IMG/VR virus record: IMGVR_UViG_3300047508_000187 | Location: 1 to 48,326 of that record | DNA: 48,326 nt | Strand: one strand, 5' to 3' | DNA from: a virus | Part shown: positions 1 through 48,326 of the stretch, piece by piece | Layout of the letters: every line of letters starts with the position of its first letter | Numbering within the stretch: the first letter of the stretch is position 1 | Notes under the pieces: generated by a model | Told to the model about the DNA's origin: nothing | Databases searched by the model: none | The model's input: the letters and a program-made list of their open reading frames with translations, nothing else | Translations under genes and position numbers: made by a program

Positions 1-127
1 CCGTCACGACCAACTCAATCTGGTTCACTTAACGAGAAGCCGCCGCCGCTGAAGACGCGCGGCCAGCGCGATACGAGCGCGCGCGAGTGGAGGACGGAAT
101 GACCACCGTGCTGGCCCTCGACCTCGC
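1..127. repeat. Terminal direct repeat, left copy
   Basis: Identical to the last 127 bases of the window (48200-48326). An exact overlap of this length at both contig ends is what a de Bruijn assembler leaves on a circular or circularly permuted molecule when the largest k-mer is 127. It is less likely to be a true phage direct terminal repeat. The repeat includes the start of the homing endonuclease gene. Confidence 0.95.
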
Positions 128-962
128 GACTGTGCCGCAGCGCAAACGATATATCTATGCGCTTTACGCTGGTCGGCAGTTGCTACCTTGTTACGTTGGA
201 ATCGGTACCGGCGATCGTATGCATCGCCACCTATCGGAAGCAAAGCGCGCGGATCGAAAAGAGAGCCGGAAATATCGAGTCCTACGGGCCTGCATAAAAC
301 GCGGGATTCCCATAAAGGCGTTCAAACTTGCGTCGAATTTAACCATAGACGAGGCGTGCGCGTTCGAACGGTTTTTGATCAACGTCTTCGGGCGACGTGA
401 CCTTCAAACCGGTTGCCTTTTGAATTCTTGTGCCGGGGGTCTCGGTGTTCGAAACGTGGCGCCGAGCACAAAGAAGAAATTGGCGGAGGCTGGTCGTCGT
501 CACATGGCGCGACCAGAAATCCGGCAAATGCTCAATGAACGGAAAAACACGCCAGAGGCGCGCGCTCGTCAGGCGGCAGGGGTTACAGGCAAGAACCCAT
601 CGGATGAAGCGCGCGCGAAAATGTCCGATGCGCGACGAAGACGCAATGAGCAATTTCCCGAAGAGATGCTATGGCGCAGCAGTTTTTTGCATCCTCCCGC
701 CAAGGGCAGCTTCAAGCATTCGGAGGCAACAAAGCATTTAATTGCCGAAGCCTCTCGCGATCAATGGAAAGACTCGATCATTCGTGAACAACGATCAGCT
801 TTCCTTCGAAACCCCCCACCCGAGGTAAAGGCCAAGATTGATGCCGCTCGTTTCGGTCGCAAGACTACGCTCGGGAAAAAGTGGTCCGCGGAAACGCGTG
901 CTAAAATGTCTGCATCGCAAAAAGAAAGACGAGCAAATGAGCGCGCTGGTGTTGGCCCTTGA
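99..962 (+). CDS. GIY-YIG homing endonuclease inserted in the resolvase gene
   Basis: A 287-residue protein. Residues 18-36 carry the GIY-YIG-like pair YIYALYAG and YVGIG, followed by Arg40. Residue Glu in AFERFLIN fits the catalytic acid and NSCAGGLG the family's N-GG motif. The C-terminal half has two NUMOD3-like DNA-binding repeats (SDEARAKMSDARR and SAETRAKMSASQK). The first 12 residues (MTTVLALDLATV) match the start of the downstream resolvase, so the reading frame appears to be the original resolvase start fused to the endonuclease. The ATG at 99 follows GGAGGA at 89-94; an in-frame GTG at 87 is a weaker choice. Base composition is more AT-rich than the neighbours, as expected for an incoming mobile gene. 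The family makes site-specific nicks or breaks that drive copying into uninterrupted alleles. Confidence 0.85.
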   Translation: MTTVLALDLATVPQRKRYIYALYAGRQLLPCYVGIGTGDRMHRHLSEAKRADRKESRKYRVLRACIKRGIPIKAFKLASNLTIDEACAFERFLINVFGRRDLQTGCLLNSCAGGLGVRNVAPSTKKKLAEAGRRHMARPEIRQMLNERKNTPEARARQAAGVTGKNPSDEARAKMSDARRRRNEQFPEEMLWRSSFLHPPAKGSFKHSEATKHLIAEASRDQWKDSIIREQRSAFLRNPPPEVKAKIDAARFGRKTTLGKKWSAETRAKMSASQKERRANERAGVGP

Positions 963-1488
963 TTTAGCGACTGTCACGGGGTGGGCAAGAGGCGTCGTCG
1001 GCGGCACGCCCATCGCCGGCTCGATCCGCTTTGGCACGCGCGAGGCGAGCGACGGCGAGGTCTTCGGCCAGGCCATCGGCTGGACGAGCAAGCTGCTCGA
1101 GATGGCGCCGCGGCCGGACATCATCGTGGTCGAGGCCATGCTGCCGCCCGGCGCCAAGGTCGGGCAGACCAATTCCTCGACGCGCGACCGGCTCGCGGGC
1201 CTGCACGCCATCGTCCGCGGCGTCGCGCACATCCGCGGCATCGGCGAGATCGCCTGCTATTCGGTCGGCGACATCCGGCATCATTTCATCGGCGACCGCA
1301 GCTTGCGGCGCGTGCAGGCCAAGCAGGCCATCGTCTTGCGCTGCGAGATGCTCGGCTGGCAGGCCGTGGATAATAACGCCGCAGACGCGTTGGCTGCGTG
1401 GAGCTATGCCTGCTCGATCATCGACCCGACGCAGGCGCTCAAGGTGTCGCCATTGTTCAACAAGCAATTGCGGGTGCATGTGCAATGA
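937..1488 (+). CDS. RuvC-like Holliday junction resolvase
   Basis: A 183-residue RNase H-fold protein of the phage RuvC type, which cleaves four-way or branched DNA formed in replication and recombination before packaging. Acidic residues sit where the family needs them: Asp9 in VLALDLATVTGWA, Glu66 in IIVVEAM, and Asp145/Asp150 in VDNNAADALAAW. The gene starts inside the 3' end of the homing endonuclease gene in another frame (26-base overlap). Its first 13 codons look like a synonymously rewritten copy of the sequence at 99-134. The body of the gene from about 976 onward has the GC-rich codon use of the phage. Its stop overlaps the next start (ATGA). Confidence 0.85.
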   Translation: MSALVLALDLATVTGWARGVVGGTPIAGSIRFGTREASDGEVFGQAIGWTSKLLEMAPRPDIIVVEAMLPPGAKVGQTNSSTRDRLAGLHAIVRGVAHIRGIGEIACYSVGDIRHHFIGDRSLRRVQAKQAIVLRCEMLGWQAVDNNAADALAAWSYACSIIDPTQALKVSPLFNKQLRVHVQ

Positions 1489-3930: not shown

Positions 3931-4129
3931 CGGGACAGGTAGGTGTCCCGAAAGCAAATCGACAACCAGTTGAATTCACAATTTCGCCACACGGGACAAC
4001 GCCATTTGTCCCGATTGTCCCGAAATCAACTAAGCCTCGCAAACACAACAAAAAAAGCCGGGACAATTGTTGTCCCGACGCCCACGCCGGAATCCATACC
4101 CGGCAGGGGAGCGAAATCGGGACGGGACA
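3931..4129. repeat. CGGGACA repeat cluster, candidate origin iterons
   Basis: Eight exact copies of the heptamer CGGGACA or its complement lie in about 200 bases: forward at 3931, 3992, 4059 and 4123, reverse at 3944, 4007, 4016 and 4071. A ninth near-copy (CGGGACG) is at 4118. Three forward/reverse pairs form inverted repeats with 3-8 bases between the arms. No gene fits here. The placement directly after the RepA-like gene makes an iteron-type origin or a binding array for a regulator the best readings. Confidence 0.6.
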
Positions 4130-4134
4130 AGGTC

Positions 4135-4149
4135 TAGTCCTATATAGAA
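4135..4149. promoter_or_regulatory. Operator-like half-site upstream of the NusG-like gene
   Basis: TAGTCCTATATAGAA here is nearly the same as TAGTCTATATAGAA in the palindromic operator at 34549-34564 beside the ribbon-helix-helix gene, differing by one extra C. It lies 109 bases before the NusG-like gene. It could be a second binding site for that regulator. Only one half-site is evident here. Confidence 0.4.
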
Positions 4150-4152
4150 GAA

Positions 4153-4196
4153 CTCTGAGTCAGAGGATTTTTCGATCAGAATTCGAGATCGAAAAA
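4153..4196. repeat. Two perfect inverted repeats in the NusG leader
   Basis: CTCTGA-G-TCAGAG (4153-4165) is followed by TTTTTCGATC (4168-4177) and its exact complement GATCGAAAAA (4187-4196) with a 9-base loop. No U-tract follows, so this is not a standard terminator. The structures could be protein sites or an RNA leader structure for the gene starting at 4258. Confidence 0.5.
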
Positions 4197-4257
4197 CGAG
4201 CGAGTTCCCGAGCCCAAATTTGACGACCACGCCGCCGCCGCGCTAAAGGCAATGGCC

Positions 4258-4785
4258 ATGACCTTTTGGGCCGTGGCGCAAACCGTCTCGCAGCGGGAAA
4301 ACTCCGCCGGCATCCGGCTCGCCGAGGAAGGCTTCGAGATCTTCGCCCCGCGAATCCGCATCCACCTCAACGGCACCCCGCGCGTCGTGGCGCTGTTTCC
4401 CAGCTACCTGTTCGTGCGGGTCGTCGACCGCTGGCGGGTGATAACCAAAACCATCGGCGTGCTTGGCCTGATCATGGCCGGCGACCATCCAGCCTGCTGC
4501 CCGGACGCCGAAATCGATAAAATCAAGGGCGCAACCATGCGCAACGGTTTGGTAAGGCTACCGAAACCACCGAAATCGCGGGCCTTCAAGCCGGGCCAGA
4601 GCGTGCGAATTAACTCAGGCTCGTTCTGCGGCTTCACCGCGATCTACCAGGGCATGAGCCCCCGCGACCGCGAAATCGTCCTGCTCGAGATGTTCGGCCG
4701 CGAGACCCGCATCGAGCTCGGCGCCGGCGATCTCGTCGAGCCGGCGGGGCTACCTATTGCGGTTTCGGCCAATCAGAGCTACTAA
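4258..4785 (+). CDS. NusG/RfaH-like transcription antitermination factor
   Basis: 175 residues with the NusG order. The N-terminal NGN-like domain has TFWAVAQTVSQRENSAGI, then ALFPSYLFVRV and a turn with IGVLGLI. The C-terminal KOW-like domain (FKPGQSVRINSGSFCGFTAI to GAGDLVEPAG) covers the last 60 residues. The family binds RNA polymerase and modifies pausing or termination, so this protein may let polymerase read into the long rightward structural region. An ATG at 4252 is also in frame, but AAAGG at 4245-4249 lies only 2 bases before it and 8 before the ATG at 4258, so 4258 was chosen. Confidence 0.75.
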   Translation: MTFWAVAQTVSQRENSAGIRLAEEGFEIFAPRIRIHLNGTPRVVALFPSYLFVRVVDRWRVITKTIGVLGLIMAGDHPACCPDAEIDKIKGATMRNGLVRLPKPPKSRAFKPGQSVRINSGSFCGFTAIYQGMSPRDREIVLLEMFGRETRIELGAGDLVEPAGLPIAVSANQSY

Positions 4786-38222: not shown

Positions 38223-38408
38223 ATGGAAATGCTTTGGATCAGAACACCAGAACATGACCGCCGCTTTGCCTGGGGCGACGACTATGCCGGCGACGGCTGG
38301 CAACATCGCCACACTGGTGAAATCCGCTGGACCGTCGTGGGTTTCGATCTGAACGGTGTTGCCTCTCCCGCGCTAAAAACACACAAAGACAAAGGCCCAT
38401 ACGAATGA
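38223..38408 (+). CDS. Small protein before the integrase
   Basis: 61 residues. GGAGG (38213-38217) is 5 bases from the ATG at 38223; the reading frame is open further upstream through the tandem repeats but those codons are unlikely to be used. Sequence LWIRTPEHDRRFAWGDDYAG and IRWTVVGFDLNG. The stop overlaps the integrase start (ATGA). It could be an excisionase-like or DNA-bending helper by position only. Confidence 0.55.
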   Translation: MEMLWIRTPEHDRRFAWGDDYAGDGWQHRHTGEIRWTVVGFDLNGVASPALKTHKDKGPYE

Positions 38409-39643
38409 AGCTCTCCGACAAGACGATCCGCACCCTGGCCTGCCCGGCCGGCAAGGCCGAGAAGACGTTCTGGGACGAGGACGTGACCGGCTTCGGGCTT
38501 CGCGTCCGCGCCAGCGGTGTCCGTACCTGGACCGTCATGTACGAGGTCGACGGCCGCGCCCGGAAGATATCGCTCGGCTCGCCGGCGATCGTCCCCGCGG
38601 CCGCGGCGCGCGCGAAGGCCAAGGACTTGCTGGCGGTCCGCCAGCTCGGCGGCGACCCGGCGGCCGACCGATCGCGTGCCAGGGTCGAGGCGGCCACCAC
38701 GATCGGCGCCCTGCTGCCGCGATACTTCGACTGGAAGCGCCCGCGGTTGAAGCCGGCGACACTGCGCGAGGTAATCCGGCACCTCAATAAGCATTTGCTC
38801 CCGCTGCACCGCGAGGCGATTACGGCCGTGACCCGCGCCATGGTCGCCCGGCGCCTCACCGAGGTCAGCGCGTCCAGCGGCGCGGCGACGGCCACCAGGT
38901 CGCGCGCTTCCTGGTCCGCATTCTTTATGTGGGCCTGCCGCGAAGGGCTCATTGAATCGAACCCGGTCGCCTTCACGAATCTGCCGTGCGAACCCTTCGT
39001 CCGCGACCATGTCGTCACCGATCCCGAGATCGGCGCCATTTGGCGCGCGCTCGGCGATGACGTGGACGACGACTATGCGGCCATCGTCCGGCTTCTCATC
39101 CTCACCGGCGCCCGGCGCGACGAGATCGCCAGCCTGCGACGCGGCGAGATCGATATCGGGGCGGCGTTGATTACCCTGCCGGGCGCCCGCGTCAAGAACA
39201 GCCGCGAGCATGTCATCCCGCTCTCGCCGCCCGCGCGCGCCATCCTCGCGGCCCGGCTACAGCACCGGCCCGATCGGGATCTGGTCTTTGGCTACGGCGA
39301 AGGCCCGTTCTCCCAATTCACCGCGCCCAAAAAACAGCTCGACGCCAAGCTCGGCTCCGCGGTCGCGCCCTGGCGCCTGCATGACTTCCGGCGCTCGATA
39401 TCGACCGCCTTGCACGAGCGCTTTGACGTACCGCCCCATATCGTGGAGACGATCCTCGGCCACGTCGGCGGCCACAAGAGCGGGGTTGGTGGCGTGTACA
39501 ACAAGGCCCTTTATCTCGACCAGCGTCGCGCCGCGCTCGAGCGATGGGCCGCGCATGTCCTGCAGCTCGCCGGCAACCGAATTGGGCGTCCGCGCCGCGC
39601 GGCGCTCGCGGACAACGTCGTCGCGCTCACCACCGGAGTTTGA
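38405..39643 (+). CDS. int: Tyrosine integrase
   Basis: 412 residues. N-terminal DUF4102-type arm-binding domain (residues 1-90, WDEDVTGFGLRVRASG), core-binding SAM-like domain (about 95-195) and catalytic domain (200-390). The catalytic set is Arg237 (TGARRDE), Lys264, His326-x-x-Arg329 (HDFRRS), His353 (ILGHVGG) and Tyr365 (GVYNKA). It catalyses recombination between attP and attB for lysogeny. Its arm domain would bind the 11-base repeats upstream. Confidence 0.93.
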   Translation: MKLSDKTIRTLACPAGKAEKTFWDEDVTGFGLRVRASGVRTWTVMYEVDGRARKISLGSPAIVPAAAARAKAKDLLAVRQLGGDPAADRSRARVEAATTIGALLPRYFDWKRPRLKPATLREVIRHLNKHLLPLHREAITAVTRAMVARRLTEVSASSGAATATRSRASWSAFFMWACREGLIESNPVAFTNLPCEPFVRDHVVTDPEIGAIWRALGDDVDDDYAAIVRLLILTGARRDEIASLRRGEIDIGAALITLPGARVKNSREHVIPLSPPARAILAARLQHRPDRDLVFGYGEGPFSQFTAPKKQLDAKLGSAVAPWRLHDFRRSISTALHERFDVPPHIVETILGHVGGHKSGVGGVYNKALYLDQRRAALERWAAHVLQLAGNRIGRPRRAALADNVVALTTGV

Positions 39644-48199: not shown

Positions 48200-48326
48200 C
48201 CGTCACGACCAACTCAATCTGGTTCACTTAACGAGAAGCCGCCGCCGCTGAAGACGCGCGGCCAGCGCGATACGAGCGCGCGCGAGTGGAGGACGGAATG
48301 ACCACCGTGCTGGCCCTCGACCTCGC
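48200..48326. repeat. Terminal direct repeat, right copy
   Basis: Exact copy of positions 1-127, including the ribosome site and first codons of the homing endonuclease gene. Should be removed once when the circle is closed. Confidence 0.95.

Follow-up and report, generated by a model that had tools for sequence, protein, structure and literature searches.

In a soil phage, the gene for a RuvC-like Holliday-junction resolvase is interrupted after its twelfth codon by the gene for a GIY-YIG endonuclease, which uses the resolvase's original start and leader as its own, and the resolvase reads on from a replacement 5′ end that overlaps the endonuclease gene in a different frame. From the sequences compared here, we think it fairly probable that this arrangement arose by insertion of a homing endonuclease at codon 12/13 together with the 5′ end of a foreign resolvase, and that its spread is driven by the nuclease.

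The window analysed is a stretch of 48,326 nucleotides, a circular virus record whose ends carry an exact repeat of 127 bases (1–127 = 48200–48326). Such a repeat is typical of the overlap in a circular contig assembled with k=127. It ends inside the leader, 7 bases short of the insertion joint, perhaps because co-existing empty and filled alleles made the assembly graph branch there. The phage encodes an integrase (38405–39643), a terminase and a YqaJ-type recombinase, and is therefore probably temperate and tailed. A NusG-like protein (PF02357, E 5e-12) is also encoded, at 4252–4785.

All features of the interrupted locus lie on the plus strand. The endonuclease open reading frame (ORF), the first to read rightward, occupies 99–962, is preceded by a Shine-Dalgarno-like sequence (AGGACGGA, 91–98) and encodes 287 amino acids, leader included. 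It begins MTTVLALDLATVPQRKRYIYALY; the leader MTTVLALDLATV (99–134), which represents the first 12 codons of the original resolvase, is followed by PQRKRYIYALY. The restored resolvase (937–1488; 183 amino acids; phrog_159, E 9.3e-9) begins MSALVLALDLATVTGW, also given as MSALVLALDLATVTGWARG, and its replacement 5′ end of foreign spelling (MSALVLALDLATVTGWAR) extends over 937–990. The two genes overlap at 937–962, where the CTT-GAT spelling of the restored resolvase creates the TGA stop of the endonuclease (960–962); on paper, both appear intact. Both 108–134 and 949–975 spell the peptide VLALDLATV, and the 6 differences among their 27 bases are all silent. On these ORF coordinates, codons and silent differences, an earlier sequence-only reading of the locus was correct throughout.

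The endonuclease combines a LEM-3-like GIY-YIG domain with NUMOD3 motifs. The Pfam NUMOD3 model (PF07460) matches three stretches of the protein at 31.7 bits (cut-off 20.4), the GIY-YIG model PF22945 matches at 26.9 bits, just under its cut-off of 27, and comparison with the phrog_314 homing endonuclease gives an E value of 7.5e-16; searches of solved structures returned no matches. Residues Y20, Y32, R40, E90 and N109 are invariant in an alignment of nine sequences (the endonuclease and eight relatives), and both the catalytic GIY-YIG motif, whose fold these residues (Y, Y, R, E, N) define, and a NUMOD module for sequence-specific DNA binding are present. Most homologues in named phages start only 2–7 residues upstream of the YxY motif, which marks the 12-residue leader as foreign to the endonuclease family. 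The endonuclease has no conventional start of its own and is joined instead to the original resolvase leader. Given where its homologues start, the GTG codon at the left junction (132–134), which is GTC in uninterrupted genes, is possibly the endonuclease's own former start codon. None of the nine annotated relatives in named phages carries a copy of its neighbour's N-terminus. Five of the nine named-phage GIY-YIG regions (L279, L280, L284, L287 and L288) show a 4-base ATGA-type overlap with the next gene, which suggests that GIY-YIG genes are routinely coupled in translation to the phage gene downstream. One relative, at 2480–3238 of L281 (Synechococcus phage S-SRM01), is labelled 'translation initiation factor 2', probably a misannotation.

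Close relatives of the resolvase, 83–93% identical, were found on about a dozen viral contigs, and none was found in named phages. Uninterrupted relatives include L009 and L015, with starts ATGACCAAC/ACC-GTGCTCGCCCTCGACCTCGCGACCGTC; codon by codon such genes read ATG ACC AAC/ACC GTG CTC GCC CTC GAC CTC GCG ACC GTC ACC GGC TAT GCG CGC GGC. This ancestral spelling is found in the window at 99–133 and again from 991 on, and 937–990 deviates from it. The earlier proposal that the element entered after codon 12 and took over the original start and leader is borne out by alignment with these relatives, which read straight through the junction and carry the spelling of 99–133. The match of the leader, with 99–134 differing from L009 and L015 at 3–4 of 36 bases, excludes chance. 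That the resolvase is restored in a frame overlapping the endonuclease is likewise evident from the two ORFs. The MSALVLALDL start and the codons of 937–975, whose presence in insertion-free relatives would have refuted the proposal, occur in no such gene among the resolvases retrieved.

The restored copy departs from the uninterrupted genes over a short distance only. Compared with L002, L003, L009 and L015, its first 14 codons from the shared valine are 31–36% different and the next 11 codons 3–6% different. Beyond codon 25 from that valine, the resolvase differs by about 7–12% from L002, L003 and L009, and by up to 23% from L015, which is more diverged across the whole 3′ part of the gene. 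Because divergence is confined mostly to the first codons, the foreign part comprises the codons lost to the insertion and about six more, reaching 990 (through TGWAR). The restored start, MSAL, differs from the ancestral MTN and is one residue longer, and the copy carries W for Y in TGYARG. The suggestion that the 3′ copy is a rewritten version of the lost codons thus holds in so far as it restores the gene, but not in its extent, its new N-terminus or its Y-to-W change.

The same endonuclease–resolvase composite occurs in a second phage, at locus L006 on a contig from another metagenome; these two are its only carriers. As the second example is independent and lies far from the contig ends, the composite is not an assembly error. 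The window and L006 share a unit of low divergence (132–1007), with 15 differences in 876 bases (1.7%), as against 58 in the 514 bases of its flanks (11%; Fisher P = 3e-14), which here are the leader and the remaining resolvase; the leader alone differs at 3 of 33 bases. Codon changes in the endonuclease number nine silent and nine replacement, so strong purifying selection does not explain its low divergence. The contrast between unit and flanks points to a unit that has probably been exchanged recently between different phage backgrounds. L006 lies on a 55-kb contig (IMGVR_UViG_3300047471_000544) that carries the empty locus L009 at its other end, the two being about 91% alike downstream; this may mean that the assembly merged two strains, or that the locus is genuinely duplicated.

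Genes other than endonucleases can also occupy the slot. At locus L008 the leader, identical to that of L009 over 36 bases, is fused at codon 12 to an MT-A70 methyltransferase (PF05063, E 6e-25), the joint reading LATV-GIPAAGAILADPPW. Viral-contig homologues of this methyltransferase begin differently, often with M-x-DPFAGLPRGHYGAILADPPW, and the fused protein must therefore have lost its own start. The resolvase of L008 begins with a respelled ATGACCAATGTATTGGCATTGGATTTG, and host spelling resumes within codons 10–12. The left junctions of the endonuclease and methyltransferase inserts lie 1 base apart, a coincidence that is suggestive only: if some 19 codons could tolerate an insertion, we put the probability of a chance match at about 5%. 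L008 was the sole further fusion in a scan for other LALDLATV leaders that lack a T immediately after the motif.

Two further alleles have altered starts and no insert between leader and gene. L011/L012 show the low-GC spelling of the restored start in L008 after four ancestral codons. In L007, which matches L006 in its upstream region, six codons are ancestral and a foreign patch then extends to about codon 25. Only the contigs of L006 and L007 gave hits to a degenerate pattern built on the window's respelled segment. In sequence, these alleles look like scars of lost inserts, left by recombination between leader and restored copy, or else like products of plain gene conversion. Upstream of the resolvase in L003, L008, L010, L011 and L013 lies a 68-amino-acid ORF that starts MTDILALAQFTAEEKH, like the resolvase start MTDILALDLAT, and this is possibly an older copy of the resolvase leader. 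Between the 68-amino-acid gene and the resolvase of L003, whose start is GTG, is an ORF (3974–4609) that has no Pfam match and looks HNH-like by eye; it would be another gene captured at the resolvase start.

A homing insertion of this kind could proceed as follows. A free-standing GIY-YIG gene would enter the resolvase in frame at codon 12/13, bringing with it a foreign 5′ end derived from a related resolvase. Uninterrupted resolvase genes would then be cut near codons 12–18 by this endonuclease or one related to it, and repair of the break from a phage carrying the composite would copy the gene along with its foreign 5′ end; the altered sequence at 937–990 would presumably be a poor site for cutting. 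Other genes, such as the methyltransferase of L008, might be captured at the break, and an insert could be deleted when the leader recombines with the restored copy, leaving a respelled start, as perhaps in L007 and L011/L012. In favour of homing are the uninterrupted relatives with the spelling of the leader, the catalytic and DNA-binding motifs, the non-native leader, the recurrence of the composite in L006 with far lower divergence than in its flanks, the concentration of divergence in the first codons, the second insert at the same codon, and the precedents of Glomus mORFs (PMC3630166) and Tremella N-terminal duplications (PMC7315562). It is also possible, although we advance this more tentatively, that the resolvase 5′ end is a recurrent docking site for a home-and-rescue drive: a homing endonuclease would cut there, its own gene or passenger genes would be captured in frame with the native start, restored ends would be proof against cleavage, and respelled scars would persist after loss.

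The main rival remains an accidental crossover, since the methyltransferase of L008 indicates that such insertions can occur without an endonuclease, and no phage was found that could have served as donor, its endonuclease still unfused and lying upstream of an MSALVLALDL resolvase. In viral contigs the endonuclease had few relatives, and those were remote; a search, made with no positive control, of 392 genomes from the family of Bradyrhizobium valentinum (G001) gave none. Ordinary illegitimate recombination would join a donor carrying some gene and a resolvase in tandem to a resolvase phage, with no nuclease involved; the left joint would fall by accident in the leader, the right joint would form by homology within the resolvase, and the gene could be endonuclease or methyltransferase. 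In keeping with this, other relatives have MT-A70-like genes upstream of the resolvase, in a region of highly variable gene content, and methyltransferase genes of this type often end GAATGACC, which could supply an ATGACC start. We nevertheless consider such an origin somewhat unlikely, as it would have to place the left junctions of two unrelated inserts within 1 nucleotide, and it sits poorly with two further alleles bearing foreign 5′ patches at the same place and with a unit that has probably moved between different backgrounds.

Compatibly with homing, the silent spelling of the restored copy could have been selected, either to prevent cutting or to keep the two copies from recombining and deleting what lies between them, as the sequence-only reading suggested. 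All restored copies found beside inserts are respelled, and that of the window uses the rare codons TTA and AGA (each 3% of the codons for its amino acid in this phage). However, random synonymous codons drawn at this phage's usage would give a mean of 6.7 mismatches to the leader, as against the six seen, so the copy differs by as much as one would expect of an unrelated resolvase. Changed residues and an altered N-terminus come along with the silent changes, and a foreign allele would suffice without selection. Purposeful recoding is for these reasons unlikely, and given the altered N-terminus, the Y-to-W change and a divergence equal to random synonymous choice, 937–990 is best read as a foreign allele that arrived with the insert. 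It is possible, all the same, that only diverged copies survive.

It is very improbable that the respelling was favoured because it keeps the mRNA open at an internal, coupled start. Restored starts do contain less G+C than the ancestral spelling, but the respelled start of L008 folds more stably than the ancestral spelling in its place (-22.1 versus -17.0), and L007 likewise folds more stably when respelled. A group I or II intron or an intein, spliced out of the conserved gene that the endonuclease gene interrupts, is scarcely credible, as the ORF occupies nearly the whole insert, splicing is not needed where the whole 5′ end has been restored, positions 1–2000 gave no Rfam intron match, and the differing frames of 99–962 and 937–1488 rule out protein splicing. 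An integrase-borne element of the kind that restores a gene end was rejected as well: the insert (132–990) holds the endonuclease ORF only, and the integrase of the phage lies outside it, at the coordinates given above.

Free-standing homing endonucleases are for the most part believed to do no damage because they lie between genes. The endonuclease described here instead enters a coding start, borrows that start and repays the lost codons, and so can occupy a needed gene without splicing. We know of no phage precedent for a terminus-restoring insert, within a limited full-text search, and to that extent the earlier impression that an N-terminal version is little described still stands. It does not stand for fungal mitochondria, where such a version is already on record (PMC7315562).

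Fungal mitochondrial mORFs, found in atp6, atp9, cox2 and nad3 of Glomus and in atp6 of Allomyces, restore the C-termini of the genes that they enter (PMC3630166). Like them, the phage composite places an endonuclease gene in a protein-coding gene and completes its target with a diverged copy of the terminus, the differences being largely silent and the native terminus staying behind as a remnant (PMC3630166). In mORFs, however, the C-terminus is restored and the native piece lies downstream (PMC3630166). In the present case, carried by a phage and not an organelle, it is the N-terminus that is rebuilt, with the native piece upstream as part of the endonuclease; the composite thus works like an mORF without being a member of that class. 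Inserts in Tremella mitochondria do carry N-terminal duplications that swap the host terminus for a foreign one, and their gain and loss has been proposed to replace the start and so change the gene (PMC7315562). Those inserts are described as introns (2.1–2.2 kb in nad4, for example), with the insert present in cDNA in some cases (PMC7315562), whereas the phage insert has no ribozyme, amounts essentially to one ORF overlapping the restored gene, and shares its slot with an unrelated gene.

Among phages, the endonuclease resembles the free-standing Seg-type GIY-YIG enzymes of T4-like phages in having a DNA-binding part and no intron (PMC2988022). T4-type free-standing endonucleases spread with co-conversion of their flanks and are usually intergenic, apart from the site that they cut; they are not known from that account to restore a terminus, and here the gene is fused to the first codons of its target and rebuilds them (PMC2988022). 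Synthetic HomeR drives also combine a homing nuclease in an essential gene with a re-coded piece that restores it, but they are engineered, Cas9-based and restore the 3′ coding part, (PMC7968924); in the phage, a natural case, resistance of the restored end to cleavage is putative. In function, the composite would be akin to a naturally occurring homing element that carries its own rescue sequence. What appears new, within the search made, is a free-standing, N-terminal and multi-occupant version in a phage, with close precedents in fungal mitochondria at both gene ends. It offers a phage counterpart of the mitochondrial terminus-restoring elements and parallels, in nature, the gene drives built with a recoded rescue. 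The small series of alleles (empty, occupied by either of two genes, and possibly scarred) allows the order of events and the site of the nuclease to be tested directly.
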